In this document: piece after piece, positions 1 to 20,344 of the stretch | How positions within the stretch are numbered: the first letter of the stretch is position 1 | Layout of the letters: each line of letters starts with the position of its first letter | From: a virus | DNA length: 23,387 bases | IMG/VR virus record: IMGVR_UViG_3300025874_000101 | Span: 1-23,387 of that record | Strand: one strand, 5' to 3' | Made by a program: the position numbers and the translations under genes | The notes under the pieces: model-generated | What the model was told of the DNA's origin: nothing | What the model saw: only the letters and a program-made list of their open reading frames with translations | The model's database searches: none

Positions 1-1243
1 GTACTAATACTCCTTCGATTCCAGCATCAGCAACACCTCCACGAGTAGAAGCGTCGTTTAAGTATTTCCAGTCAGTTTTGTAGAAGTCATAAGAACCTCT
101 TCTGAAACCAGAGAAACCTAAGTTCAATGCCATTTCTTCAGAATTTTCGAATACACCAAAAGAACTACCACCTTGGTAACCAGCAGCAGGAGATCCTACG
201 TTAGATAACATATCATCAAAATCTAGAGAAGTTTCTCTATTTAAGAATAACATGTTTTCTTCGATAGCCCCTTGAGTATCTAAGTTTTTAAGAATTGAAT
301 CAAACTGAGCTAAACCAGTTGCTGCAGTAAAGTCTACTAATACATTTCCACGGCTTTTAACAGCAGCGAAAAGACCTTCAGTACCTTTAGCAGTTGTAGT
401 TGAACTTCCAGATTTTAATTCACCTTCTACCATAGACATTTCTAAGTAATCTTCAAAACGTAATCTTGTTTCAGATTCAGCTTTTAAGTACCATAAGAAA
501 CCTCCTTGACCAGACTCAGTAGCTACTTCAACCCATCCAATCTGAGCAGTGTCAGATCCGTTGATTGCGTACTTGTCTTTAATGATAATAGGAGAGTTAG
601 AGTATTGAGTGAAAGAAGGTGTTACAGAAACTCTGTTAGCATCTCCAGTTCCTTTTCCATACTCAGATCCATATACAAAAATCTTAAGTGTTGGTCCACC
701 AGTCACTAAATCTACTTCAGCAGCTCCTGCTCCAGTTCCATCTAAAGCTTCTTGCGAATAAGGCGCTACAGTTAATACACCTGCACCTAATGCGCTACCA
801 GGAGTAGCTCCAGAAGCAACAACGTAACAGTTTAATTCTGCTCCAGTTGCTGGATTCATAACTACGATTGTAGAACCAGGAGACACAACGTTTTCAACAA
901 GAGTTGCACCAGACCCACCAATATTCTGAATAGTTAAAGTAGATACTTTTGCTCCTACTATACCTGTATTAGTTGCTATTACATTATCATAAGAGATGTG
1001 TAATCTATTTTGTTCAGACCATACTACTTGGTCAGAAGTCATTGGCATTTCAGCTCCTACCATTCTTAAGAAACCACCTAAGGTTCTATTCCCATAACGC
1101 TCTACTTCAGCTTCATAGATTTCTGGTAAGTACTGTTGTGCGAAATCATTCGTCCCATCAGTAAAGTTTAAATAATTGCCTTCTAAGGCTTGTTTTTTTT
1201 GCGTTGGGATTAAACTCCCGAACGCTGGGCTTACATTTGCCAT
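1..1243 (-). CDS. major capsid protein, C-terminus cut by the window edge
   Basis: Open from an ATG at 1243 (start MANVSPAFGSLIPTQKK) through 414 codons to the left edge with no stop, so the C-terminus is missing. It is recognised as a tailed-phage major capsid protein by family resemblance. The N-terminal part has YLPEIYEAEVERYGNRTL, then a segment with QVVWSEQNRLHISYDN. A Gly/Ala/Thr-rich beta segment follows, then an IIIKDKYAINGSDTAQIGW block and an FLWYLKAESETRLRFEDYLE block, both of which I recognise from capsid proteins of marine phages. It forms the icosahedral shell and would be the most abundant virion protein. It is the last gene of the terL-portal-scaffold-capsid order, 16 bp after the scaffold stop, with an A-rich leader and no Shine-Dalgarno site. 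The HK97-type fold is assumed for tailed phages and not shown directly. Confidence 0.85.
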   Translation of the reverse strand, partial: MANVSPAFGSLIPTQKKQALEGNYLNFTDGTNDFAQQYLPEIYEAEVERYGNRTLGGFLRMVGAEMPMTSDQVVWSEQNRLHISYDNVIATNTGIVGAKVSTLTIQNIGGSGATLVENVVSPGSTIVVMNPATGAELNCYVVASGATPGSALGAGVLTVAPYSQEALDGTGAGAAEVDLVTGGPTLKIFVYGSEYGKGTGDANRVSVTPSFTQYSNSPIIIKDKYAINGSDTAQIGWVEVATESGQGGFLWYLKAESETRLRFEDYLEMSMVEGELKSGSSTTTAKGTEGLFAAVKSRGNVLVDFTAATGLAQFDSILKNLDTQGAIEENMLFLNRETSLDFDDMLSNVGSPAAGYQGGSSFGVFENSEEMALNLGFSGFRRGSYDFYKTDWKYLNDASTRGGVADAGIEGVLV

Positions 1244-2434: not shown

Positions 2435-4843
2435 TTATCTAGATGTAAACTGCTCTAGTCCAAAACCATCTAGATTATCGTTTCCAGCAGACTCAAAATT
2501 AGTAGGTAATAAATCGTTTTGTCTTTGATTTATTAATTCAGATTGTTGAGTTCCTTGTATTTTTACTCTTTTATCTTTTCTATCTTCTATTTCACTTTCT
2601 TTCTGCTGTTGAACTTTTGCAGTTGCTTGAGCTAATTGCATTTGATAATTAAACTCTTCAGCCATTAACTCTCTTTTTATTTGAGCCTCAGTTTGCATTC
2701 TTTGTATTTCAAACTGTGATTTAGCTTGCTCTATACTAACTTTTTCTTGAGTGAGCGCTTGTTGTTTCTGTACTTCAGCCATTGCAGCTTTTTCAGCTGA
2801 TTCAGCGTTTGCTTGCGCTTGTGCTTGGATATTAGCTTGCTGCTGCTCTTGTTCTCTTTTTATTTTTTGACTTTGCCTCATTTTCAAGAACTGATTAGCT
2901 AGTTTTATATTTTTAATATTCCTAATATCAATAGCGTCTGATAAAGCAATTGCTTGTGTTTGTAAAGCTACTTGTATGTTTTGTTCTAATAAAGCTTTTT
3001 CTTCATCTTCAGGTTCTAACTCTAAATAAATACCAAAATCATGTAGCTGCAGGTTAATCAACTCCTCAAGAGTTTTAGTATTAAATGTACTTATAGCATT
3101 TGTTAAAGCATTTTCTGTTAAAGGATTTTCAATTACATCAGCTACCTTTAGACTTATATTTTCACAAGTTCTAACAGTTAAATATAACAACGAATCTAAT
3201 ACATGCTTAGTTGCGATATTAGAAGCATTAGCCGCCATTTTTTGCAAACCTAATAAAGAGTCTTTATTTGGAGCGCTACCGTCTCTTGCTTCATTTAATC
3301 CGGTTACATCTCTTATCATTTGTAGATAATATTGATATGTACCAATTAAACTTTGTATTTTTCCTTGACCACTTGAAGATGACAGTTCTTGTACAGGCAC
3401 TTTACCTCTATTTAATTCGCCGTCTTGAGTCAATGATCTACCTACAACAGAACCTGTCTGGAAGTACATGTTCAACGCCTCGGCTGGATTGTATGTTGTC
3501 CCGTTACCTAAATCAACTTCAGCTAAACCATCCATATCTAAGAATACACCATCTGGCACTATTCTAGACATTACTTGTTGTAATTTAAGGTGTGTTATTT
3601 GAATCATATCAGCAAAGCTAGTAATTTTACTAACTATAGACTCTATGCGTCCTTTGTACATCCTAGGTGCAGATATACAGTAATTCATCATTACCTTTGT
3701 AGTATCAGCTGTTGGTCTAGTCATATTCTCAGCCAACTTCCACTCTAGCATTATATTTGTACCTAACACTTTAGCTCCAGTATATAAAACTTCTATTGTT
3801 CTAGATATTCTTTCAAAGTTATCATTAGCTGGAGGATTAAACGTGTCAGGCTTTTCTAATGTTTTCTCTAATCCTTGATCTGTTTTCTTTATTTTAAATA
3901 CTTGGTCTGAATACGTTTTGTACTCAAAGTACAATACTTGTATTGTATTTTCATCATAATTACCCCAGTTAGTTACATACTGCGAATTGCCAGGCATATC
4001 TTGTATTTTTTCTAATTCAGCTGGTGATAAATTTGGAAACTGTTTTTTAAGCTCTGCTAAAGAAATTGATTTAACTTCACCTACATAATATATATCTTCA
4101 AAGTTTGGATCCTCTGTATATGAATAAATCATATTAGCAGGGTCAACATAGTCAGTAACTATACCTTCAGATTTGTTAAACGAAGTTTTAACAGCTCCAA
4201 TACCTATAGTGGTTAAATCGTGAGCTAATCTTTTCTTTGTTTCATTGTACTTATTAAACGAGAGGACATTATTTATAACTTCTTCTTCTGCAATCTCCAC
4301 GTTTTGTTTATACGTCATTTGCATATGTATATCTAACTCTTCCTTACTTTGAGGTAGAGCTTGTAAGTCGCCTGTCATTGAAAAGTCCATACCTAGGTTT
4401 TGCTGTATATTTTGCAAAGCTTCTTTAGTATTCATATCTCTTTCAACAGCCGCAGCATAATCAGTTCTGCTTTTTACAGAAAATGGATCTTGAGCAAAAG
4501 CACTTATTTCATAAGTCTTATTAGACATTCCATTTACAACAATATCAACAAACTTTGATATAACTGGTATTGGTTTCCAGTCTAAATTAAGATAAGACAA
4601 ATCACCGTTTATGGATAATTCATCTTTATACTTCTGTATTGATTGCTCACCTCTAGCGTATAAACGTAGTGAGTGAAAGCTATTCCAATTGTTCAAATAT
4701 CTATTACCATTACCTCTTCCTTGATTGAACCATTCTTGTTCAATAGCTCTAGAGACTTGTAAGCCGTAATCGTAACTAGCTTTTACTTCGTCACTAACAA
4801 CCTGGTTAGGGAAAGAACTATCGGTATTTGTTTGTATTTTCAT
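2435..4843 (-). CDS. portal protein
   Basis: An 802-residue protein whose ATG immediately follows the terL stop, the standard place of a portal. The portal forms a dodecameric ring at one capsid vertex, docks the terminase and later the tail. The N-terminal two thirds have portal-like features: a basic/aromatic start with WNSFHSLRLYARGEQSIQKY, then a mixed alpha/beta body with MTRPTADTTKVMMNYCISAP and GLNEARDGSAPNKDSLLGLQK, a pattern seen in many portals just before the crown. From about residue 660 to 760 there is a long Gln/Ala/Glu-rich coiled coil (KIKREQEQQQANIQAQAQAN and onward), longer than in typical 500-600 residue portals. This may form an extended helical barrel or crown. Large portals with Q-rich ends occur in several phages of Bacteroidota, but I do not assign a family. 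Confidence 0.8.
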   Translation of the reverse strand: MKIQTNTDSSFPNQVVSDEVKASYDYGLQVSRAIEQEWFNQGRGNGNRYLNNWNSFHSLRLYARGEQSIQKYKDELSINGDLSYLNLDWKPIPVISKFVDIVVNGMSNKTYEISAFAQDPFSVKSRTDYAAAVERDMNTKEALQNIQQNLGMDFSMTGDLQALPQSKEELDIHMQMTYKQNVEIAEEEVINNVLSFNKYNETKKRLAHDLTTIGIGAVKTSFNKSEGIVTDYVDPANMIYSYTEDPNFEDIYYVGEVKSISLAELKKQFPNLSPAELEKIQDMPGNSQYVTNWGNYDENTIQVLYFEYKTYSDQVFKIKKTDQGLEKTLEKPDTFNPPANDNFERISRTIEVLYTGAKVLGTNIMLEWKLAENMTRPTADTTKVMMNYCISAPRMYKGRIESIVSKITSFADMIQITHLKLQQVMSRIVPDGVFLDMDGLAEVDLGNGTTYNPAEALNMYFQTGSVVGRSLTQDGELNRGKVPVQELSSSSGQGKIQSLIGTYQYYLQMIRDVTGLNEARDGSAPNKDSLLGLQKMAANASNIATKHVLDSLLYLTVRTCENISLKVADVIENPLTENALTNAISTFNTKTLEELINLQLHDFGIYLELEPEDEEKALLEQNIQVALQTQAIALSDAIDIRNIKNIKLANQFLKMRQSQKIKREQEQQQANIQAQAQANAESAEKAAMAEVQKQQALTQEKVSIEQAKSQFEIQRMQTEAQIKRELMAEEFNYQMQLAQATAKVQQQKESEIEDRKDKRVKIQGTQQSELINQRQNDLLPTNFESAGNDNLDGFGLEQFTSR

Positions 4844-7054
4844 TTATCTTAATATTTTAGACGTAGAACCTCTATTGTCATATCTTTTAATTCCTAAATC
4901 GTAAACCTTTTTTTGCACTGGACTAACCGGTGAATATAGGTTTTTGTTACAAGCCATTATTGCTAAACCAGAACTTATAGAAGCATCGTGCTTTGTTCTA
5001 TTGTTTATATTGAATTTACCCCAGTCCTCTAATGTTCTTTGGAAGTACATATCACCATACCCAGCTTCATTTCGTCCAACACAAGTTTCTATATATGATT
5101 CTATAGCTGCAGCGTGCGCTTGCTTTATATCTTCACTAGAGTTTGGTATACCACCTATTTCTCTTTCAGTTACAGATAATTTGTTTAATCTTTTATCAGG
5201 CCTATTCATTGAAAAGCCTCTATAGCCCCTTCTTTTAAAATGATACAGTAATCTAGGTTTATTGTTTTCCGCAAGTATTGGCATACCGTAAAATACGCAA
5301 GCCATCAAAACATCTTCAAAAAATATTTCAGCAGTTTGCGGTCTAGCTATATACTCTAAAAAGAATCTGTTAGGTGGAACATCTTCCATACTAAACTTAG
5401 TTAAACCGTGCAAAGCTCCGTTAGAACCTCTTTTATCAACTGTACCTGATATATCATAACTGTCACAACCAAAAGCGCCACAGTGTTCGTTACCTGGGTA
5501 CTTTGTATTACCTTTTATTATAACTCTGTTTTGCATCTGTACAGGTGGTACCCAACTAACGTTGAACCTACCGTTTTTGTTTGGTACAAATATTACCTTA
5601 GTATCTTTTATACCGTTTTCCCACATAAAACTTCCAGTGGTTATTATCGATGTATTTCTAAGGTCTTCGTTATAATCTATTTGTTCATATATCTTCGTTA
5701 AATTAAACAAAGATTGTTTTGCTTCATCTCTAAAAGCGTGTTGCTCTGTTCTTGGAAATTGGCGATAGTATTCATTTAAACCATCTTGATCTCCTTTTAA
5801 TCCTTCAACTTCATTTGTCCAGTATTCAATTACCCCTTGCCTTATAGGTGATCCGTCAGGACCTTCAGCTGGTTTTTTTGGCGTTTCAAATACAGGAAAT
5901 CCAAAAGAATCAATGTAGCCTTCGTAGTTCCATTCCATAGGAATGAACAAGCTATAGAGTCCCGAACGAGTCTGTCCATTTGCATTTCTTTTTGTTGCGT
6001 CGGAGTCATAGTATAGTTTTTTAAAGTTTTCGCCACCCTTATCTAAAGCATTTGATGTACTACCCATCATACACTTACCTATAATTTTTGAACCTAATCT
6101 CAAACAAGTTTTTGTAACTCTCCAGTTATTTAATATATTTGTAGGTCTTTCCCATTTACCACTTTCATCGTGGACTAATAGTTTTAATTTTTCACCGTCG
6201 TATGAGTTGTCCCCGGTGTTCTTCCAGTCGATCGTTGTATCGAGACCGGTGATTTCCTGTAGCTTTTCATTGGTGTCAAGCTTTTTTCTGGTAAATTTGG
6301 ACGCTGGTACCCTGTACGCGAGTTCTGTCTTCGGCCTGTCCATACCGTCCTGGATGGGTTTGAAGAAGAAGGGATAATTAACCGAGATGGGTACCACTTT
6401 ATCAGTAAACATCTTTTTTGCATCTGGACCAGACTTTGATAAAATTCCGAATCTAGAGTCTGTGGATATTGTAGCTTGATTAACCGTTTCGCCTGAGGCC
6501 ATGAAAGAAAACCCTGACCGTCTGTTCTTAAGATAGCACATTCCGTAACAACGTACATCTGATTTACAAGCTTCCCAGAATATAAAGAATAATCTGTTTG
6601 ACTCCCTAAAGTCTGCTGCCCCAACATCAATCTTGGACCACTGCAGGTACATGTAGTGAGTGCCAGTAATATAAGAAGGCTTGTCTTTGTTAAAAAACCA
6701 AAAACCTTCTTCACGCCTTTTAAATTCTGTATCAATATAGTCATACCATTTCTCTTTAAATTGTGAAGGGTATTCGTCCCAATCAAACACCGATTTTATT
6801 TTTGAAAGCTCTTTTGGGTATTCCATGTGTTTCCACTTGTCTCCTTCAAACTTAATAACATCATTTTCTTTTGGTAATGCTATTTTTACTCCTTGTATTT
6901 CGTAAATCTCACCTATCTGTCCGGTCTTACTGATTACAACTACGTCATGCTCTTCGTTATAACCGTACTCCCATTTCTTATATCTGTTTAACCTTTTTAA
7001 TATCTTAGGTTTAATATAGTCTTTTAATATTGCTACTAAGGTTTGTTCGTACAT
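4844..7054 (-). CDS. terL: terminase large subunit (packaging ATPase and nuclease)
   Basis: A 736-residue motor protein that drives DNA into the prohead and cuts concatemers. A strong Walker B with catalytic Glu is at about residue 297 (LKLLVHDES), followed by a coupling motif near 340 (CMMGSTSNALDKGG). A nuclease-domain acidic block lies near 530 (GAFGCDSYDISGT), and the QFPRTEQHAFRDE linker region near 440 is characteristic of large terminases. The Walker A position is unusual: near residue 178 it reads LKNRRSGFSFMASGE, lacking a clean GxxxxGKS/T, as in other divergent viral terminases. Its ATG overlaps the preceding stop (TAATG) and its stop abuts the portal ATG, so the genes are translationally coupled. 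The segment encoding about residues 130-290 is much richer in G+C than the rest of the gene (see findings). Confidence 0.88.
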   Translation of the reverse strand: MYEQTLVAILKDYIKPKILKRLNRYKKWEYGYNEEHDVVVISKTGQIGEIYEIQGVKIALPKENDVIKFEGDKWKHMEYPKELSKIKSVFDWDEYPSQFKEKWYDYIDTEFKRREEGFWFFNKDKPSYITGTHYMYLQWSKIDVGAADFRESNRLFFIFWEACKSDVRCYGMCYLKNRRSGFSFMASGETVNQATISTDSRFGILSKSGPDAKKMFTDKVVPISVNYPFFFKPIQDGMDRPKTELAYRVPASKFTRKKLDTNEKLQEITGLDTTIDWKNTGDNSYDGEKLKLLVHDESGKWERPTNILNNWRVTKTCLRLGSKIIGKCMMGSTSNALDKGGENFKKLYYDSDATKRNANGQTRSGLYSLFIPMEWNYEGYIDSFGFPVFETPKKPAEGPDGSPIRQGVIEYWTNEVEGLKGDQDGLNEYYRQFPRTEQHAFRDEAKQSLFNLTKIYEQIDYNEDLRNTSIITTGSFMWENGIKDTKVIFVPNKNGRFNVSWVPPVQMQNRVIIKGNTKYPGNEHCGAFGCDSYDISGTVDKRGSNGALHGLTKFSMEDVPPNRFFLEYIARPQTAEIFFEDVLMACVFYGMPILAENNKPRLLYHFKRRGYRGFSMNRPDKRLNKLSVTEREIGGIPNSSEDIKQAHAAAIESYIETCVGRNEAGYGDMYFQRTLEDWGKFNINNRTKHDASISSGLAIMACNKNLYSPVSPVQKKVYDLGIKRYDNRGSTSKILR

Positions 7055-7329
7055 TATCTAGATCTTCCTTCTGCAAAACCCCTAAAAGCTTTTTCTTCTT
7101 TAGCTTCTTTTGGGTTTTCATTTAACATAGCGTCTTCCTCTTCTATTCTAGCAAGTATTTCAAAAGCATCGAATATAGCTAATTTTTTAGTTGCGGCAGC
7201 ATTTTTAAGTCTGTCAGCTGATAAATCATCTTCTGAGTCAACGATCTTTTCTTCTGCCACTTTAATTAACTCCTTAACTGCTTTTTGCCCAGCTAGGATT
7301 ATATTCTTCTTGGTTTCCTTTGTGTTCAT
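7054..7329 (-). CDS. small helical protein before terL, possible small terminase subunit
   Basis: A 91-residue, charged, mostly helical protein (KKNIILAGQKAVKELIKVAE, then SADRLKNAAATKKLAIFDAF). It sits directly upstream of terL and overlaps it by one base. Small terminase subunits, which recognise packaging sites, often occupy this place, and the size is at the low end for that role. No clear helix-turn-helix can be pointed to, so the function is a positional guess. The first 56 bases overlap the end of the tandem GroES-like gene in another frame. No later Met exists before residue 68, so this start is the best available. Confidence 0.6.
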   Translation of the reverse strand: MNTKETKKNIILAGQKAVKELIKVAEEKIVDSEDDLSADRLKNAAATKKLAIFDAFEILARIEEEDAMLNENPKEAKEEKAFRGFAEGRSR

Positions 7330-7879
7330 ACTTAATTACAATATCATTAGATTTCATACAATAAACTCTTTGATCGTCTATTATAAAATCCCATTCACTA
7401 CCGGGCGTAAACCCTACTGTGTCTCCTGGATTGATATTAAGCGCTTTTAAAGAACTATTACCTATTTTTAATATACCAATAAGGTCTTGCTCTTTTTGTG
7501 ATCTTAAAGTGTCTTTGTTTTTTAAAGGTATTACAAAGCATCTGTCTCCAAATGATTTCCAATCCTCTGTATTTTTATACAAATATATTTGATCTGCCGA
7601 ACAAAAGTGTAAGTCATCTTTAAAATGAGATCTACTTCTTTTCTTATTACCTCGGATATCATAAAAAACTCTAAATACATTATGATGTATTATTATGATA
7701 TCGCCTTTTTTTATACTTGTTTTAAAAGCTTTTGGTGTTTCAACCACTATAGCTAAATTGTTTACAGACTTAAAGTCTTCAATTTTAGTGTTTAGTATTA
7801 ATGTAACGTCGCCTAGCTTTACCTTGTTATCGTATCTATCGCCAATAGGTTTGACGATAAAATCGTATAGACTTCTCAT
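7274..7879 (-). CDS. tandem GroES-like protein (two GroES-type folds), candidate co-chaperonin
   Basis: A 201-residue protein whose two halves each follow the GroES plan. Half one has FIVKPIGDRY, a strand-loop with VTLILNT where the GroES mobile loop lies, NLAIVVETP, then IKKGDIIIIHHNVF, and ends in ADQIYLYK. Half two has CFVIPL, LIGILKIGN, INPGDTVGFTPGS, then RVYCMKSNDIVIKYE. Escherichia coli GroES has the same order: RVIVKR, GGIVL, GEVLAVG, VKVGDIVIFND, then VLIMSESDILAIVE. The correspondence of VxxGDxVxF with a closing SDI strand in both halves is the main evidence. GroES caps the GroEL chamber; T4 gp31 does the same job for its capsid protein. Whether this protein binds GroEL is inference. 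It is double the length of normal GroES and sits beside the packaging and capsid genes, away from the groEL-groES pair. It might instead be a virion protein that reuses the fold. Confidence 0.55.
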   Translation of the reverse strand: MRSLYDFIVKPIGDRYDNKVKLGDVTLILNTKIEDFKSVNNLAIVVETPKAFKTSIKKGDIIIIHHNVFRVFYDIRGNKKRSRSHFKDDLHFCSADQIYLYKNTEDWKSFGDRCFVIPLKNKDTLRSQKEQDLIGILKIGNSSLKALNINPGDTVGFTPGSEWDFIIDDQRVYCMKSNDIVIKYEHKGNQEEYNPSWAKSS

Positions 7880-8107
7880 TTAATATTCTAAATCATACTC
7901 AACGGATATTGCCATGTTAGAATTAAACTTCTTCCATGGCATCACCTCATTTCCTTTCTTTATGTAAATACTGTAAGAATTAGATTGTGCATCGTGTAAT
8001 ATGCAATCTATAGTATGTCCACCATAAACGTTTTGACCTACTGAATAGTGCATAGCGTCATTCTTATAGTCAGAACCTATACTTATTTTTCTTACAACAG
8101 AACTCAT
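7880..8107 (-). CDS. small protein of unknown function
   Basis: A 75-residue protein that I do not recognise functionally. It is predicted mostly beta, with short strands and many polar residues (RKISIGSDYKNDAMHYSVGQ, then SYSIYIKKGNEVMPWKKFNS). There is no signal peptide or membrane segment. Its ATG overlaps the stop of the coiled-coil gene by one base (TAATG), and its own stop abuts the start of the tandem GroES-like gene, so all three are probably made from one transcript with coupled translation. Position between holin and packaging genes suggests a head or DNA-end accessory role at most. Confidence 0.6.
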   Translation of the reverse strand: MSSVVRKISIGSDYKNDAMHYSVGQNVYGGHTIDCILHDAQSNSYSIYIKKGNEVMPWKKFNSNMAISVEYDLEY

Positions 8108-8395: not shown

Positions 8396-8423
8396 TATTA
8401 TTACTCGTTTTTAATATTTTTAC
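8396..8423 (-). promoter_or_regulatory. shared leader motif, copy 1 (upstream of the coiled-coil gene)
   Basis: The 16 bp TATTATTACTCGTTTT (plus-strand reading, 8396-8411) followed after 4 bp by ATTTTTAC is repeated before groEL at 16398-16413 and 16419-16426 with a 5-bp gap. On the coding strand this reads GTAAAAAT, a short spacer, then AAAACGAGTAATAATA. In both places an ATTTA-type pentamer leader lies between motif and ATG. It could be a phage-specific promoter or an RNA leader element. It does not match the Bacteroidota TTG/TAnnTTTG consensus well. Confidence 0.4.
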
Positions 8424-8851
8424 TTTTTAAACACTGGTGCTAGCTTATCTACTATTTTTTCACCACTTCTACCTATTACATAACCTCCAATACCTATTTC
8501 TAATAAGCTCCAAAATTCTGGTTCTAAAACAGGTGTTACTAGGTATGTTGATAGTTGTGATATGAATTTTGTATATATGATTATAAAACCAAATGAAAGC
8601 ATTAGTATAGGTCTCCAGCTTCTTTGCAGCCAATTACCTTTAGCTTCTGCTACAATAATCTCAGTTTGCATTCTTTGCAGCTCTAGTTGAGCATCATGCA
8701 ATACTTTAAATATTTTATTTCTAGCATTAAGTCTTTCTTCTTCGCTAGTGAATAGGTTGTCAACCACATCACCAACTTGTTTGAAGACTTTAGTACTGAA
8801 AAATTCTAATATTTTTTTCACTCTATTTTCTTTTAGTAATATCTCCAGCAC
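8420..8851 (-). CDS. holin-like membrane protein (three-TM, gene-transfer-agent holin type)
   Basis: A 143-residue protein matching the plan of the 3-TM holin family known from gene transfer agents and marine phages. It has an N-terminal amphipathic helix region (VKKILEFFSTKVFKQVGDVV), a conserved helix with EIIVAEAKGNWLQRSWRPI, then a hydrophobic segment (LMLSFGFIIIYTKFISQL) and a second one around FWSLLEIGIGGYVIGRSGEK. The WLQRSWRPI block just before the membrane segment is the recognisable signature. Holins make the lesion in the inner membrane that triggers lysis. No endolysin is seen in this window. Its start overlaps the preceding gene by 29 bp; an in-frame start further in is possible. 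Confidence 0.75.
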   Translation of the reverse strand: MLEILLKENRVKKILEFFSTKVFKQVGDVVDNLFTSEEERLNARNKIFKVLHDAQLELQRMQTEIIVAEAKGNWLQRSWRPILMLSFGFIIIYTKFISQLSTYLVTPVLEPEFWSLLEIGIGGYVIGRSGEKIVDKLAPVFKK

Positions 8852-9272: not shown

Positions 9273-12230
9273 TTATGATTTTAATAATTCTATTTCTGCT
9301 TTTAATTCTTGAATTGCTTTTACTAAAACTGGTATAAGTCTTCCGTAGCTTGCTTCTAATTTTTCGGGATTTTTATCCTCAACCAACTGTGTGTAGTCAT
9401 CATTTACTTCTTGTAAATCTTGAGCAATAAAACCTAAGTCTTTAATTCCAACTTTTGCTCCATCTCTCATATTCCAATCAAACGTAACTGGTTTAAGTTT
9501 GCTAATTAAATCTAAACCATATTCAGAATCCTGTATGTTAGTTTTATCTCTTTTATCTGATAAACTTGTGATAGTTTGTACTTGACATTTTAAAGCAGTT
9601 ATAGATGAATTACCAAGAACAATCGTATTACTACCACCACCTACAGCATTGTAACCTATAGCAATTTCATTTGTTACACCGTCTGCAGAAGCAATAGCAT
9701 TATTACCTAAATAAGTCGAATTATTTATGACTGTCTCTCTTCCGCTAAAGTTTCCAGAATTATATCCTAAACAGGTGTTATTAGAACCTTCAACTATCTC
9801 ACTCATAGATTTAGTTCCTATTAAAGTATTTCGAAGAGCTGCCCCATCTTCTTCACCAAAAGCAACCCCAGCATCTGAACCTAAAGCTATATTTTGATAA
9901 CCTTCTATAAGATTTCCAAAAGTATTATCGCCAATACCAACGTTTTGATAACCATCAGAGTTTGTTCTTAGCTCTGCTAGAGAATTAGCACCTATACCTA
10001 TATTTTGATAAGAAGAAGTAATTGAATTACCAGAATTACTACCTATAAAAACATTTTGATAACCAGAAGTAATTGAATTACCAGAATTATATCCTAAAGT
10101 TGCATTTTGATAACCAGAGGTAATACGCTGTAATGCCGCTGAACCCATAGCCGAGTTTTGATAGCCAGAAGTAATGTCTCGCATAGACCTTAGACCAATA
10201 GCAACATTATTATTTCCACTTGCTCCAACTGCACCTTCTAAAGCTTGATAACCTAAAGAAACATTATGATAACCATTTACGTTGTTTTTCATAGCAAAAG
10301 TACCAACAGCTGTATTGTCATAACCTTCAACAGTATTTCTTAAAGATTCATAACCAACAGCAGTATTTTCATTTGCTAAATTATTTGCAAACAAACTTTC
10401 ATAACCAATAGCTGTATTTCTACGGCCAGGGCCAGCGGCTCTAACGTCTATCTCTAGTGCTAAGTCTCCACCGCCACCACCTAAGCTATCTTCGTCAATA
10501 TTTACCTCAAATACAATAGCAGTAGTCATTCCTGTAATAACCCCGTAATTATAATCGTCTGGCTCCTCCTCATAGCCTACAGGAATATCTATATAAGATA
10601 AAGTAAGACCATTTCCTAGAGATATATTAGTATAATTTCCAGCAACTGCGCCTCTCCTTCTATCACCCTCAGGATATATATTAGCAATAAAACCAACAGT
10701 ACTACTATATAAAGCCCTATAGCCAACACCTACATTAGCATCCCCGACAGACATTGTAAATCCAGCTTCAGCCCCTATCATTACATTATCAAATCCAGTG
10801 GTTATATTTTGTGAAGCTTTATAACCAATAGCTACATTAGTATCTCCTGAGGTTGTATCATTACCAGCGTTAAAACCTACCCAAGTATTCTTTGTTGCAG
10901 TTTCAGCTGCGTTACCAGCTCCTACACCTAAAGCTGTTTTACCGCCAGGAGTGTCTGAATCTGAATTGGTAACACCTGCTAAAGATGCAGGAATATTAGG
11001 CTTATTTAGTATAACAGCACTACCGGCAACAGCGTTCCAATCGGATTGAACATTTGAAACTTTCATAGCATTATTTTCTATTGCAGTCGCTTGTTCAGGC
11101 GTAATTGTTACAGTATCACCTGCCATAGCTTCAGTACTTGAGGATCCAAGTGTTAATGATGTAAAACTATCAGGGTTACCATCACTATAAGGTGTAAAAC
11201 CTAAAGCAGTTGTAATATCTTGAGATGTTATATTTAATGTTGCACTTGTTAAATACGTACTTTCGTCTACAGATCCATCAGCCTTTAAGAATTGGGCACT
11301 TGTTCCACCAGTTTTAACAAAACTAGTTGATTCAAGTAATCCACCAAATCTAGATGGAAGTGTAGAAAGAGAATTAATTGCTCTTGAAGTTCCACTTACA
11401 TTTGACCATGTGTCATTTTGTATTCTAAGATATGATGTATCTCCAGTAATTGTTTCTCCAGCATTGCTATCGTAATCTAGTAATAATACATCCACATTTC
11501 TAGCAGTTCCACCAAATATCTCACACGATATATGAGCTCCTTGCATGTTAGTAACTGTCGCTCCACCAGAGTGTCTAGATGTCATGTCTGCTGCTCTCAT
11601 GTAGCCTAAAGTACCACCTGAAGTATTTTTTACCTCTGACCATAGCATTGCTCCAATAGTAAAGTTATTTGTACCATTATTACCATTTGGATCAGTTCCT
11701 CTATAAGAGGCGTTATTGTATGCTCCAACAGTGTAGTTCTTTAATCCACCACTTCCCTCATAACGACTCCAAGATTCAGTTCCCGTAATATATCCTACTA
11801 ATTTGTCGTTAGTGTTTTTAGTCCTAGTTACTCCACCAGTATAGTAAGCATATTGAGAATCTACAGCAGGATTACCTAAAATCTCTGTCCAACTAGTTAC
11901 TGAATTTCCAGCAGATGAAGTCGTACTATAAAAAGTTGCCGAATTACCTATTTGTGGTCCAGCAGTCCCTTGTGGATCTGAATAAATTCTATCGATTGTC
12001 AAATCATTAAATTCTACATTATCTGTAGTGCTTAAGGTTTGATCGTATAATGTAATTGAATTCCCTTCTGAAATAGATATTTGATTACCAGATATACTTA
12101 AGGTTTGACTATCTGCAATCATATTACCTGGCGCTATGCGTACGTTATCTGTTCCATTGTACCCTACTATAAACTGTACATTTGCTGGGTCCGTCTGTTC
12201 TTGAAATTGTGAAAATTTTAAATTTGGCAT
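9273..12230 (-). CDS. trimeric tail fibre with YadA-head-like repeats and S74 chaperone end
   Basis: A 985-residue fibre. The N-terminal 85 residues (MPNLKFSQFQEQTDPANVQF, later NVRIAPGNMI) look like a virion-attachment domain. A middle module holds TGGTSAQFLKADGSVDESTY, also present in the other S74 fibre. From about residue 430 to 860 there are repeats of the GYQNxxxGxxS type, typical of left-handed YadA-head beta rolls in trimeric adhesins. They are interrupted near residues 512-606 by a non-repeat insert with a GGGGG run. The C-terminus is a peptidase S74 intramolecular chaperone: the SDKRDKTNI block carries the expected catalytic Ser and Lys, followed by DLGFIAQDLQEV and a final helix. 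In this family the chaperone trimerises the fibre and then cuts itself off just before the Ser. It is likely a receptor-binding or side fibre. Confidence 0.85.
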   Translation of the reverse strand: MPNLKFSQFQEQTDPANVQFIVGYNGTDNVRIAPGNMIADSQTLSISGNQISISEGNSITLYDQTLSTTDNVEFNDLTIDRIYSDPQGTAGPQIGNSATFYSTTSSAGNSVTSWTEILGNPAVDSQYAYYTGGVTRTKNTNDKLVGYITGTESWSRYEGSGGLKNYTVGAYNNASYRGTDPNGNNGTNNFTIGAMLWSEVKNTSGGTLGYMRAADMTSRHSGGATVTNMQGAHISCEIFGGTARNVDVLLLDYDSNAGETITGDTSYLRIQNDTWSNVSGTSRAINSLSTLPSRFGGLLESTSFVKTGGTSAQFLKADGSVDESTYLTSATLNITSQDITTALGFTPYSDGNPDSFTSLTLGSSSTEAMAGDTVTITPEQATAIENNAMKVSNVQSDWNAVAGSAVILNKPNIPASLAGVTNSDSDTPGGKTALGVGAGNAAETATKNTWVGFNAGNDTTSGDTNVAIGYKASQNITTGFDNVMIGAEAGFTMSVGDANVGVGYRALYSSTVGFIANIYPEGDRRRGAVAGNYTNISLGNGLTLSYIDIPVGYEEEPDDYNYGVITGMTTAIVFEVNIDEDSLGGGGGDLALEIDVRAAGPGRRNTAIGYESLFANNLANENTAVGYESLRNTVEGYDNTAVGTFAMKNNVNGYHNVSLGYQALEGAVGASGNNNVAIGLRSMRDITSGYQNSAMGSAALQRITSGYQNATLGYNSGNSITSGYQNVFIGSNSGNSITSSYQNIGIGANSLAELRTNSDGYQNVGIGDNTFGNLIEGYQNIALGSDAGVAFGEEDGAALRNTLIGTKSMSEIVEGSNNTCLGYNSGNFSGRETVINNSTYLGNNAIASADGVTNEIAIGYNAVGGGSNTIVLGNSSITALKCQVQTITSLSDKRDKTNIQDSEYGLDLISKLKPVTFDWNMRDGAKVGIKDLGFIAQDLQEVNDDYTQLVEDKNPEKLEASYGRLIPVLVKAIQELKAEIELLKS
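9885..10175 (-). repeat. 51-bp direct repeats encoding YadA-type coils
   Basis: On the plus strand the core TTTTGATA recurs, with one-base variants, at 9892, 9943, 10003, 10054, 10105 and 10156. The steps are 51, 60, 51, 51 and 51 bp. Each unit encodes 17 residues of the form ITSGYQNxxxGxxSGNS (20 in the longer one). Two neighbouring units share over 20 identical bases around GTAATTGAATTACCAG. Such repeats can change copy number by slippage or recombination and so alter fibre length. Confidence 0.85.
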
Positions 12231-12646: not shown

Positions 12647-12958
12647 TTATTTTTTAGTTTTATTATATGCTTCTTTTTCCCAGGGTAAGTTTTTTGCCCC
12701 TTCTTTCATTTGTTTGCGTGAATATTTTTTACCTTTCCAGTATACGTTTTGATCGTCATAGTCTAAATCACCCCTCTTCATTTGATCTATGTGTACCATT
12801 TCGTGTTTTATAACACTATTTAATTTAGCTGGTGATAAATTATTATTTATAACAATAGTACCATTGTTATTGGCTTTACCTAAAACGCCATCTTCCATAT
12901 CTATACTATAAATAGGAGTATTGTCTATATTATAAAATGGTTGAATTTTAAAAGCCAT
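12647..12958 (-). CDS. small HExxH metallopeptidase-like protein
   Basis: A 103-residue protein with a zinc-peptidase motif, H52-E53-M-V-H56, inside NSVIKHEMVHIDQMKRG. A Trp-Glu-Lys-Glu-Ala block near the end (E94 and E96) could give the third zinc ligand in gluzincin style. A TIVINNNLSP segment just before the motif resembles the edge strand that small metalloproteases use to hold substrate. It is much shorter than typical secreted peptidases, more like the small phage peptidase-like proteins found near tail genes. Substrate and activity are unknown: virion maturation or cell-wall entry would be guesses. The N-terminus MAFKIQPF is shared with the protein at 8823-9269. The candidate structured RNA ends 10 bp before its ATG. 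Confidence 0.6.
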   Translation of the reverse strand: MAFKIQPFYNIDNTPIYSIDMEDGVLGKANNNGTIVINNNLSPAKLNSVIKHEMVHIDQMKRGDLDYDDQNVYWKGKKYSRKQMKEGAKNLPWEKEAYNKTKK

Positions 12959-14124: not shown

Positions 14125-14548
14125 TGTTGACGTTTTTTATAGACACGCTTAATACTTTATCTGTATAAGTATCTCCTTTCATTATTTTGTTTCTACTACT
14201 CGTAGGTATATCATCTTGACCTAACATTATCCTATAAATTCTATTTATAAGTTGTTTGCCTTTAAATGATACTTTATATATATGATACTTTTGAGTAGTT
14301 CTATTTCTTTTTCGCCAAACAGAGATCCAGTTTTCCTTCAATAACTTATTCCATCTTCTATTATCCCAACTGTATGAAAACGTACCTGTTTTAAAATCTT
14401 GTTTAGTAAACATGTCTAAACAATCTAAATAAATTAATAGTTCTAGATCAGCGTCGTTTAAGTCATTATTTCTACATGCCCATTTTCGTATGATTCTGTA
14501 GTGTTTCAACAACCCTAATTTTTTAACATCACTAGCATCTATTCTCAT
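14108..14548 (-). CDS. possible winged-helix DNA-binding protein
   Basis: A 146-residue basic protein directly after groES, with an ATGA overlap. The first 100 residues read like a small winged helix: helices in KHYRIIRKWACRNNDLNDAD and LELLIYLDCLDMFTKQDF, a recognition-helix-like segment in WNKLLKENWISVWR, and a wing-like hairpin in NRTTQKYHIYKVSFKGKQLI. A KGK..I.R.Y step follows, as in MarR-like proteins. The role would be a regulator or DNA-end binding protein, but no signature residues fix this. Similar proteins are frequent in marine phage structural regions. The last 40 residues are polar and probably disordered. Confidence 0.5.
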   Translation of the reverse strand: MRIDASDVKKLGLLKHYRIIRKWACRNNDLNDADLELLIYLDCLDMFTKQDFKTGTFSYSWDNRRWNKLLKENWISVWRKRNRTTQKYHIYKVSFKGKQLINRIYRIMLGQDDIPTSSRNKIMKGDTYTDKVLSVSIKNVNNDKTR

Positions 14549-14811
14549 AAAACTACAACTATATCTTGCATTTTTATAACTTGATACGGATCACCTTCTA
14601 TTTCTATTGTGTGACCAGCGTGTCTATCGTAGTAAATTAAATCACCCTTGGTTAGACCTGCTTTGGTTGCTTCTTCTCCAGGAGATATTACAGATGCTTT
14701 AATGTATCTTATATCTTCCCTTTGTTTCTCGGCAAGAAGTAAACCGCCTTTAGTAGCGGCCACTCCTTCTTTTTGTTTTTTTATTATTAAGTTTCTACCT
14801 ATCGCCTTCAT
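14545..14811 (-). CDS. groES: co-chaperonin GroES
   Basis: An 88-residue GroES, slightly shorter than the cellular 94-97. The order is strand NLIIKK, then a mobile loop with KEGVAATKGGLLLAEKQ in which G22-G23-L24-L25-L26 stands for the GroEL-binding GGIVL of E. coli. ASVISPGEEA, TKGDLIYYDR and a closing VIKMQDIVVVL strand follow. The roof hairpin that closes the dome is short. It would cap the phage GroEL and possibly the host GroEL, making the folding chamber. Its ATG lies 17 bp inside the end of groEL, so the two are coupled, but in the order groEL then groES, the reverse of the usual bacterial operon. No Shine-Dalgarno sequence precedes it. Confidence 0.88.
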   Translation of the reverse strand: MKAIGRNLIIKKQKEGVAATKGGLLLAEKQREDIRYIKASVISPGEEATKAGLTKGDLIYYDRHAGHTIEIEGDPYQVIKMQDIVVVL

Positions 14812-16832: not shown

Positions 16833-17261
16833 TTAACAATTTGCCCTAGCTGTCACAACTCCTTGAGCGTTTGTTGAGAATGCAGCGTTTACTTCTACGG
16901 AGTTTGTAGGGAAATATTTACGTGATTTATTAACCATTGGAGAATTACCAGCTGCATCAAAATAACAGTAATCATTTACAACCGGACCTGGCCCACTACC
17001 ATTGTGATATGCTGTAATCTGATTACTTGTGGGTTCGTTACAAGGTATAGGTTCCGTGGGGTTACCTGAACACGTAAAAGCTGTTAAACTAGAAGAATCA
17101 TAATTTCTAAAATTCAACAATCTATCCTTTGACCCACTATAAGAGGAATCGAACTTGCTAGCTACAGCGTCCGCAAAAGAATCAACTAAATCATCTGTTG
17201 TTGGATTTACTGTATTAACAACGTCTTGTAATGAGAAAGTGCTGGTGTTAGGTACGCCCAT
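16833..17261 (-). CDS. small fibre-associated protein (TFSLQDVVNxV type)
   Basis: A 142-residue protein starting MGVPNTSTFSLQDVVNTVNP, then DDLVDSFADAVASKFDSSYS and DRLLNFRNYDSS. This N-terminal layout is one I recognise from proteins beside fibres in phages of flavobacterial hosts. The C-terminal half has four Cys (FTCSGNPTEPIPCNE, DYCYFDAAGN, final RANC) and reads as a small beta domain. The ATG overlaps the S74 fibre stop by one base (TAATG). It may be a fibre tip or adaptor. Confidence 0.6.
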   Translation of the reverse strand: MGVPNTSTFSLQDVVNTVNPTTDDLVDSFADAVASKFDSSYSGSKDRLLNFRNYDSSSLTAFTCSGNPTEPIPCNEPTSNQITAYHNGSGPGPVVNDYCYFDAAGNSPMVNKSRKYFPTNSVEVNAAFSTNAQGVVTARANC

Positions 17262-20200
17262 TATTTTTCTAGTTTCTCTAATCTTGCTTCTAACTCAGCA
17301 ATTTTAGCAATTAATAAATCTATATAAGCAACAGACTTAAACCCTTGACTGTCTTCTCTTACAAACTCAGGATTAGTCTTCTCTAACTCTTGAGCTATAA
17401 CACCGTATCTTTTCTGTCCTTTTTCTGTTTTTAATTCAAAAGTTTTCCAATCTGCTTTAACTCTATTATCACATACTTGTTCAATATTTTCTTTTAGTCT
17501 TTCATCAGAAGATAATATGAAGTTTGTAGCTGTAACGGTATTGCTGAAAGTGGTTGCACCAGTTCCGCCCATCCACATCCTAGTAGCGTGACCGCCTCCG
17601 TTACCTAATCTAATAGCAAATCCACTATTACCATTATCTCTTCCTTGAATCACTGTTGCTCCAAACTTTCCAAATGGATCCTCTGTACCTGAACTCGGGT
17701 TAGTTGTATATATAAAAGTATGATCTGCTAAAGCGTTTGCTTGCCCTTCTGTAACATAGCTTCTAATACCTATATCCCTCCAGGTTTGATTATCGGTTGC
17801 TGATATTCTAATTCCATTGTTAGTACCAGATATTATGTCTAATTGCTGCGTAGGTAAGTTTGCTGTGTTTATACCAACATAGCCGCCATAAGGGTTTAGT
17901 ACTATTGGTCTACCAGTTGTAGCTGCGTTATTAAGTCCTTGTATATACTGTTGACTATTTAAACCAGTCGCAAAATTAAGCTTACTGTCATAATTACTAG
18001 AAGACTTAACGCTAAGACCAGCTCTAGTTGAAACGTCACCTCTACTTACAGCGTAACTGGAAACATTTCTAAAAGAAGTAAGTCTAGCATCTGGGTTAGT
18101 TGTTCCAACACCTAAATTACCTCCATTGATATAACTATTGGTATCTGCATTTATTCTAACATTAAGATTATTTGAATCATCTCTAAGTAATAATTGAGCG
18201 TCTCCGTTTTCAAAATACAATCCACTATCTGCTGTGTTAGCGCTATTTCTAGCTTGTAAAACCCAAGCAGTTGTAGCTGTAGCATTGGGAACGTAGAATC
18301 TATTAGCAGCAGAAATTCCATTTACAACTAACGGGTAATTAGGACCAGTAGTTCCAATACCTACGTTACCTGCAGTATCAATAGTCATCCTTACAGCTGT
18401 TGTGTCGTTGTTGTAAAATTGAAGCTTATTGTTGCTTGAATTAAACTTTATAGCAGCCGCTTGAGACAGGCCAGCATCGACATCTCTAAAAATTATACCC
18501 GAGTCTGTTTCTGTGGTATCACTTATGTATATATAAGCTTCAGGACCTTTAACCTCTAGAAGCCCTGCGGGAGTAGTCGTTCCTACCCCTATTTTACCAT
18601 CAACTATAACATTAGAGGACTCAACATTTCCATCCTCACCTCCAAACCTCCAACCTTCAGTAGCTGTATGTTCGTATTCAGCACCCGTATAACCTGGATC
18701 TGTAGTTGTTGGTGTTATTACTTCATCAGCTAATGGATATATACACACTTCAGCTGTTGTAGTACTTCCCCCGTTATGCTTGGCTTCGATGGAAAAATCT
18801 TCGTTATTATTAGATGTTATCCTTAGCGTAACTTCTGTGTAGTCACCGTTAGAAGATTTAACATGTATATCCGTTGAATGATTTACTGTTATATCAAAAG
18901 TACAAGCAAATACCACACCACTGCTTGTACCAGTCATTGTCATCTTTAAAATAGAAGCAAGATTGTCACCATTAACAGTAGCCAGCATAGTGTACGTACT
19001 AGCATTTATACCTGATCTAGTAAACTGTACCATTCTAGCTCCAGTTTCAGTTGTCAAGTATGTATTTGAATCTACACTTCCATCCGCTTTTAAGAATTGA
19101 GAACTTGTTCCGCCGTCTTTGATCAGTGAGTCAGCGGTAGTGCTTCCGCTTACTATTAAGGTACCATTAGGAATTTCTACATTGTTATCATTATCTGTTA
19201 CCAGCGTATTAACTCCACCGTTATTTCTCAGCTTTATAGTGCTTCCGTCACTAACTATATAAGACCCATCGCCTAGTCCTTCAATATCACCTAACGAAAA
19301 ACTAGCGGCTGAAGAAGTAACAAGTGCTCTAAATACGTCGTCTCCTGTTCCGTCTGTAAGTGATGAGACCTTAAATTCACCTTGAGCTATTGTATCAGCA
19401 TTTAACTTAATAACACTAGCACCATCATCTATTGCAATATTAGTACCTGCTGTTTTACCTCCTGATGAAAGCGTTAAAATATCATCAGTGGTATAAATAA
19501 TACCATTAGGCCCACTAGACATTTCAAGTTCTCCATCTATAGTTAGTGTTCCTGTAAACGTATCTGTTGTGTTTAGTAAGTAATCACCAGACGCGGTTGA
19601 AATAGCGCTTGTTACAAAAGCTGTTGTAGCTATCTTTGTAGTATTGTTACCAGCTGTTTGAGTTACACCAGTTGTAGAAGTATTTATTGTGCCATTTAAG
19701 TCACCTAATAATGTAGTTGCATATACCGATGCCCATTTAGAGGTAGTAGTACCAAGTGCCATTGTATTATTAGCGGCAGGTCTAAAACCACCAGTATGCA
19801 TATTCCCTATAGCAATACTATTTGCTCTGAATGCTATTTTACTTGCGGAAAATTGTATATCGTTTACACCAGAAACCCCACCAATGTCTAAACCATCATA
19901 GTATATACTGGTTATACCTGTTTGAGCAGGTGTTACAGCAATATCATCGGCATTAATAGTCATACCTGTTCCAGCTCCTACGTTCAATGTAGGTATAGGT
20001 CCAGATAAATTTGTTCCTGTTAAACCATCTCCAGCACCAACCCCTGTTATATCACCTTGCGGAACTCCTGCTACAGCATTGTCAACGTATGTTTTATTAG
20101 CAGCATCTGTTCCAGAGGTTACTGTATCAACACCTTGAATACGACCTGTGCCACCTAAAACTATTTGTCCATTACCTACCGTTACAGTACCCTGCGTATT

Positions 20201-20344
20201 TAGTGTACCGTCAGTTGATATATTACCTGCCACATCTAACATCTCGCTAGGATTATCAGTTCCTATACCGACTCTATTATTCGCGGTGTCTACGTATAAA
20301 ACGTCTGTATCTACTTGTACGGTATTTAAGAACTGTATCGCCAT
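17261..20344 (-). CDS. large tail fibre with S74 chaperone end
   Basis: A 1027-residue fibre. The N-terminus (MAIQFLNTVQVDTDVLYVDT) leads into VGIGTDNPSEMLDVAGNIS, the first of several hGIGTxxPxxxLxVxG repeats. Others lie near residues 590 (VGVGTTTP-like), 655 (NVGIGTTGPNYPLVVNG), 740 (LGVGTTNPDARL) and 825 (YVGINTANLPTQQLDI). A module with DGGTSSQFLKADGSVDSNTY near residue 420 is also found in the other S74 fibre. The C-terminus is peptidase S74: SSDERLKENIEQV holds the catalytic Ser and Lys, followed by RYGVIAQELEKTNPEFV and a final coiled coil (IAKIAELEARLEKLEK). The chaperone trimerises the shaft and then cleaves itself off before the Ser. It is likely a receptor-binding fibre. Confidence 0.85.
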   Translation of the reverse strand: MAIQFLNTVQVDTDVLYVDTANNRVGIGTDNPSEMLDVAGNISTDGTLNTQGTVTVGNGQIVLGGTGRIQGVDTVTSGTDAANKTYVDNAVAGVPQGDITGVGAGDGLTGTNLSGPIPTLNVGAGTGMTINADDIAVTPAQTGITSIYYDGLDIGGVSGVNDIQFSASKIAFRANSIAIGNMHTGGFRPAANNTMALGTTTSKWASVYATTLLGDLNGTINTSTTGVTQTAGNNTTKIATTAFVTSAISTASGDYLLNTTDTFTGTLTIDGELEMSSGPNGIIYTTDDILTLSSGGKTAGTNIAIDDGASVIKLNADTIAQGEFKVSSLTDGTGDDVFRALVTSSAASFSLGDIEGLGDGSYIVSDGSTIKLRNNGGVNTLVTDNDNNVEIPNGTLIVSGSTTADSLIKDGGTSSQFLKADGSVDSNTYLTTETGARMVQFTRSGINASTYTMLATVNGDNLASILKMTMTGTSSGVVFACTFDITVNHSTDIHVKSSNGDYTEVTLRITSNNNEDFSIEAKHNGGSTTTAEVCIYPLADEVITPTTTDPGYTGAEYEHTATEGWRFGGEDGNVESSNVIVDGKIGVGTTTPAGLLEVKGPEAYIYISDTTETDSGIIFRDVDAGLSQAAAIKFNSSNNKLQFYNNDTTAVRMTIDTAGNVGIGTTGPNYPLVVNGISAANRFYVPNATATTAWVLQARNSANTADSGLYFENGDAQLLLRDDSNNLNVRINADTNSYINGGNLGVGTTNPDARLTSFRNVSSYAVSRGDVSTRAGLSVKSSSNYDSKLNFATGLNSQQYIQGLNNAATTGRPIVLNPYGGYVGINTANLPTQQLDIISGTNNGIRISATDNQTWRDIGIRSYVTEGQANALADHTFIYTTNPSSGTEDPFGKFGATVIQGRDNGNSGFAIRLGNGGGHATRMWMGGTGATTFSNTVTATNFILSSDERLKENIEQVCDNRVKADWKTFELKTEKGQKRYGVIAQELEKTNPEFVREDSQGFKSVAYIDLLIAKIAELEARLEKLEK

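Follow-up and report, generated by a model that had tools for sequence, protein, structure and literature searches.

Why should a marine Bacteroidota phage which has its own GroEL and a single GroES also carry, just before its large terminase gene, a protein with two GroES-type domains in one chain? The question arises from a viral stretch of 23,387 nt (IMG/VR virus record IMGVR_UViG_3300025874_000101, positions 1 to 23,387), which we will call the window. We discuss below the gene itself, which we will call the tandem gene, the fold of its product, its distribution in other phages and the function which it may have.

The tandem gene and its neighbours

The tandem gene is found on the minus strand in positions 7274..7879. 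It starts with ATG and codes for a protein of 201 aa, which belongs to PHROG 13932 ('co-chaperonin GroES'). An earlier note, made by reading the sequence alone, had placed an open reading frame in this position. The frame is real and has conserved homologues, but its strand has to be corrected to minus: the plus strand is full of stops in the same interval.

Directly upstream, with a TAAATG junction, there is an ORF of 75 aa (7880..8107, minus). Its position and sequence are kept in four related lineages (MW202828, Panino, elemo and phi38:1); a homologue was looked for in phi13:2 and not found. This ORF has no family match; its product is a possible partner of the tandem protein. On the other side a helical ORF of 91 aa (7054..7329, minus) overlaps the 3' end of the tandem gene. 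It was presented in the earlier note as the small terminase, a label which finds no support in Pfam and PHROG scans. Homologues of this ORF are separate ORFs at the equivalent place in MW202828 and phi13:2. No such ORF is present in elemo, Panino and phi38:1, whose TerL is longer by about 140 residues at its N-terminal end. The 91-aa ORF is possibly a small terminase, and its fusion with the start of TerL in these three phages is a reading with weak support.

The other neighbours, TerL, portal, capsid and a canonical GroES near GroEL, had been named correctly. The large terminase (TerL, 736 aa) is found in 4844..7054 (minus; PHROG 6681, E 4e-165), the portal in 2435-4843 (minus) and a capsid-like ORF in 2-1243 (minus), which runs off the left end of the window and probably codes for the capsid protein. 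The complete order on the minus strand is GroEL, GroES, several small genes with a fibre protein which has an S74 chaperone, holin, an 85-aa ORF, the 75-aa ORF, the tandem gene, the 91-aa ORF, TerL, portal, a 380-aa acidic protein and the probable capsid protein. The holin-like gene (8420-8851, minus) belongs to the GTA_holin_3TM family (Pfam E 2.5e-10; PHROG 3427, E 2.7e-31). Two large fibre-like proteins (9273-12230 and 17261-20344, minus) end in a Peptidase_S74 domain (E 1.2e-13 and 9.2e-10). These are intramolecular chaperone domains, so that in addition to the chaperonin genes there are two auto-chaperoned fibres in the window. A protein of 103 aa (12647-12958, minus) has a HEMVH motif, which is HExxH-like, and a weak similarity to the putative metallopeptidase DUF6782 (E 1.3e-4, under the cut-off).

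The phage GroEL (14795..16348, minus; 517 aa; Pfam Cpn60 E 1.4e-59) is 38.7% identical to E. coli GroEL; in the alignment the ATPase residues D52, D87 and D398 are kept. GroEL has been reported in phi38:1-like environmental genomes (PMC5332604), and the GroEL of phi38:1 is produced during infection: methylated peptides were detected (PMC13288928). The canonical single GroES (14545..14811, minus; 88 aa) has 43.2 bits with Pfam Cpn10 and a GGLLL mobile-loop motif. It has no roof hairpin, and the same is true of almost every single GroES in related phages, where the roof segment has 12–14 residues, compared with 21 in E. coli.

Two GroES-type domains and their loops

The earlier note had proposed two GroES folds in the 201-aa chain. 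Structure prediction of the full chain and of the N half, with profile comparison of each half, indicates that both are of GroES type. The full-length protein was modelled with AlphaFold, using an alignment of 106 diverse homologues from IMG/VR scans (pLDDT 87.8, pTM 0.79). The possibility of another fold was considered, and the predicted models show a GroES beta-barrel in each half. The N-terminal domain comprises residues 1-104 (7568..7879, minus), with evidence from AF2, Foldseek, hhalign and conservation; the C-terminal domain comprises residues 105-201 (7277..7567, minus), with evidence from hhalign and loop lengths. With the canonical single GroES the phage has three GroES-type domains, the number which had been anticipated.

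When the full-length model is compared with the PDB by Foldseek, the first match is the chloroplast Cpn20 (7ekq_R; E 1.9e-5, TM 0.56, prob 1.00), with 205 aligned columns which span the full length of the tandem protein. It is followed by about 30 GroES/Cpn10 chains with TM about 0.3, one domain each. Cpn20, a target with two domains, is aligned over its full length and its TM is about double that of the one-domain targets, which indicates that in the model the two halves are arranged roughly as in Cpn20, head to tail in one chain. In a viral library the best matches are related phage proteins, including the 'Chaperonin cpn10' of phi18:3 (200 aa, TM 0.76), and after them single-domain phage GroES proteins.

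Chain R of 7ekq is part of the Chlamydomonas ClpP assembly, and this best match could suggest that the tandem protein serves ClpP, or some other seven-fold ring, as a lid or adaptor. We find this very improbable: Cpn20 is primarily a chaperonin cofactor, the tandem phages carry groEL and a ClpP gene was not seen among the window proteins scanned. The nearest folds, all of them soluble co-chaperonins, also argue against a structural role in the virion for this GroES-like protein. The location of the gene within the late structural and packaging cluster would fit such a protein, but the record of phi38:1 labels many products as structural and its gp089 only as co-chaperonin, so that this alternative appears quite improbable.

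As regards sequence, PHROG 13932 (200 positions) matches the tandem protein with E 9.5e-23 (residues 1-182 against profile positions 1-197). The GroES/Cpn10 fold (PF00166) is common to both halves, and in the C half it is also recognized by profile: hhalign with GroES gives prob 95% and P 6.7e-9, aligned over the length of the half. With Pfam Cpn10 the window protein has 13.8–14 bits, under the gathering cut-off of 21.1, while the C half of its relatives is over it (phi13:2 31.9, L158 30.6, L159 36.1 and phi38:1 28.2 bits). The N half has a weak hhalign match with GroES (prob 26%, score 24.5) in the correct register; this score was reached by none of 300 column shuffles (maximum 20.7). In every lineage tested the N half has no Pfam Cpn10 match, so that its assignment to GroES rests on structure and on a weak profile match. 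By sequence it is thus only weakly a GroES, which we count against the co-chaperonin reading. Folded alone (AF2, pLDDT 83), the N half has a modest match to GroES/Cpn10 (best E 2e-3, TM 0.44–0.55): ranks 1–27 in the PDB are all GroES/Cpn10, with prob 0.80–1.00, and nothing else is above noise. Residues Y16, P49 and F69 of the N domain are conserved in the alignment of 106 homologues. A comparison of the N half with the C half by hhalign was not significant, a result compatible both with an internal duplication and with the fusion of two different GroES genes. When the single tandem sequence was searched against the PDB with phmmer, the sole match was a fragment of BamB, which we consider spurious.

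The chloroplast proteins Cpn20/Cpn21/Cpn23 (PDB 7ekq chains R and Q) share with the tandem protein its two GroES domains head to tail and its length of about 200 aa; Cpn20 is also found alongside single Cpn10 and Cpn60, as the tandem protein is found with single GroES and GroEL. However the two proteins have 14% identity and no orthology was detected by sequence beyond the domain family; a profile search against the PDB gave E 0.085 for 7ekq_P and 1.9 for 7ekq_R, both weak. They also differ in that the tandem protein is encoded by a phage, beside terL, and in the window lineage has a full mobile loop only in its N domain. It is likely that the fusion of the tandem protein is independent of plastid Cpn20. 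According to a review, tandem GroES co-chaperonins occur only in chloroplasts and in the apicoplast, which is related to them. In RefSeq, GenBank and PHROGs the phage family already has the name co-chaperonin GroES/cpn10, and the gene of phi13:2 was annotated as cpn10 on PF00166; we found no paper in the open-licence literature on a two-domain architecture of this family or on its comparison with Cpn20.

Loop anatomy was measured in 198 representatives, with landmarks shared with E. coli GroES. The N domain has a long segment similar to a mobile loop (residues 12-44), with a hydrophobic LIL at 27-29. The loop interval (P11-V45) has 35–36 residues in 190 of the 198 representatives, compared with 28 residues for the mobile loop of E. 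coli GroES by the same landmarks, and a hydrophobic triplet is present at residues 27-29 in most of them (about 190). A HHN motif (residues 65-67; 7679-7687, minus), just past the GDxVxV strand, is nearly invariant in the N domain: it is kept in the window-like and Pervagoviridae sequences, whereas the phi13:2 group has DVN instead. The loop of the C domain has 19–23 residues in 187 of the 198 representatives. It has 19 in the window, about 10 residues short, which we count against the co-chaperonin reading. In contrast, phi38:1, L158, L159 and the phi13:2 group have a C loop of GroES length (29–31 residues), still GroES-like in appearance (GFNLL, GLRVI, SLIYI). Long C loops are present in two separate TerL lineages of a tree whose deep forks are open, so that the short C loop of the window, elemo and Panino is likely the derived state.

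A shortened C loop might also be expected in a vestigial duplicate without function. This is hardly credible, since the homologues are intact and number in the hundreds, with invariant residues at 30–40% identity. Furthermore, the core genes of Pervagoviridae include a 'chaperonin cpn10' (PMC8776804), in a table which is silent on which of the two genes is meant.

The roof hairpin is short by at least 6 residues in both tandem domains and in the single GroES of the phage (15 and 14 residues compared with 21). An elongated mobile loop, here in the N domain, and the absence of a roof hairpin are features of T4 gp31, which is also a phage co-chaperonin with the GroES fold. In gp31 the mobile loop has 22 residues compared with 16 and the roof loops are absent, two features which are said to give the T4 capsid protein a larger GroEL-gp31 cage (PMC6318259). 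However gp31 has a single domain, is homoheptameric and uses the host GroEL. No direct sequence relation with the tandem protein was found, and the Foldseek match is weak (E 0.15–0.4).

Distribution of the family

Tandem homologues are found in at least 597 confirmed stretches in one IMG/VR scan, and the family is known from Elemovirus, Pervagoviridae and Pachyviridae. Their members, such as gp089 of phi38:1 (Pervagoviridae), gp096 of phi13:2 (Pachyviridae) and the Elemovirus protein, belong to PHROG 13932 and are placed before TerL, as in the window. All 57 loci which were seeded on TerL and have enough upstream sequence contain the tandem gene directly before TerL; the same arrangement is found in phi13:2, phi38:1, elemo, Panino and MW202828. 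One contig of IMG/VR with 129,537 bases (our L029 and L039) has two copies of the tandem gene at a distance of 63,479 bases. This spacing is close to the size of the nearly identical record L010 (63.6 kb), which points to a doubled assembly of a genome unit of about 63.5 kb. In bacterial genomes we found 30 loci, all of them in MAG contigs which are short or of mixed taxonomy; by these contig features they look like binned phage, and they were set aside.

The chaperonin genes accompany the tandem gene. Among 40 metagenomic virus records with the tandem gene 34 have groEL, and the same 34 have a single groES or a GroES-type match which exceeds the cut-off of Pfam. In the records of at least 56 kb both genes are present in all cases (13 of 13). 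In 20 of the 21 records which were measured groEL lies 2.9–17.4 kb upstream of the tandem gene; in the remaining one groEL is found across the contig ends. The six records without groEL are truncated 1.1–9.0 kb upstream of the tandem gene, and were rejected as counter-examples. All three genes are also present in phi38:1, elemo, Panino and MW202828. As a baseline, chaperonins are encoded by 7 of 2,429 reference viral genomes (PMC5332604). These counts come mostly from one phage lineage, so that the records are not independent events. A search of other phages with GroEL (Vibrio, Pseudomonas EL, AR9 and others; 214 records, E < 1e-20) gave no significant tandem match. In Cellulophaga phi13:2 the tandem gene and a single GroES are found without groEL, which we count against the co-chaperonin reading: the lid would have to serve there the host GroEL. 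The earlier note had asked whether the homologues occur in phages without chaperonin needs; we find them in phages which encode GroEL, a single GroES or both.

The strict synteny with TerL in the 57 loci and the five named phages could also correspond to a packaging or head-assembly factor which has re-used the GroES fold, with TerL, the small terminase or the portal as partner and GroEL binding lost. The shortened C loop would agree with such a loss, but the near-fixed length and the hydrophobic triplet of the N loop are as expected for a loop which docks on GroEL. A single GroES accompanies the tandem gene in every sufficiently complete genome tested. Moreover Gundel_1, a more distant relative by its TerL, has no tandem gene, groES or groEL. 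We therefore judge a packaging factor unlikely.

A possible lid for GroEL

The tandem protein is rather probably a Cpn20-like co-chaperonin which works with the GroEL and GroES of the phage. Two features of the window are counted against this reading, besides those given above. Several apical contact positions of the phage GroEL are unlike those of E. coli (L234Q, V263A, V264T), and the tandem gene is 7 kb away from groEL/groES, in the packaging cluster.

As a co-chaperonin the tandem protein would cap a GroEL ring, that of the phage or, in phages such as phi13:2, that of the host, on which its N domain would dock by the long mobile loop. It is probably a lid specialised in the folding of phage proteins; by analogy with gp31 and from the position of the gene, these may be structural ones, for example the capsid protein. 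The earlier note had suggested capping by a different symmetry or a capsid job similar to that of gp31; this suggestion agrees with the anatomy of loops and roof and with the presence of chaperonin genes in the same phages.

A ring needs seven domains and in the window lineage the C domain has no full loop, so that the tandem protein and the single GroES may join in a mixed ring. If the lid were built of three tandem chains with one single GroES, it would have seven domains and, for the window lineage, exactly four loops, an arithmetic which is suggestive only. In Chlamydomonas and Arabidopsis Cpn20 and Cpn10 form working mixed rings, and at least four of the seven GroES subunits are said to be required in working form (PMC4242682, PMC5780408); homo-oligomers with one domain excluded or missing also function in vitro (PMC5780408). 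An asymmetric hetero-oligomeric lid with three two-domain chains and one GroES, dedicated to the capsid, would be a viral counterpart of the Cpn20/Cpn10 ring with an independent origin. We offer it as a tentative and rather doubtful proposal.

A virus group which encodes the tandem protein as well as a GroEL and a single GroES of its own is a small and tractable system. In it one may ask how subunits with two domains fit a seven-fold ring, what drives the evolution of mixed lids and for which phage protein they are required. As a conserved gene, the tandem gene also marks an abundant group of phages of marine Bacteroidota.
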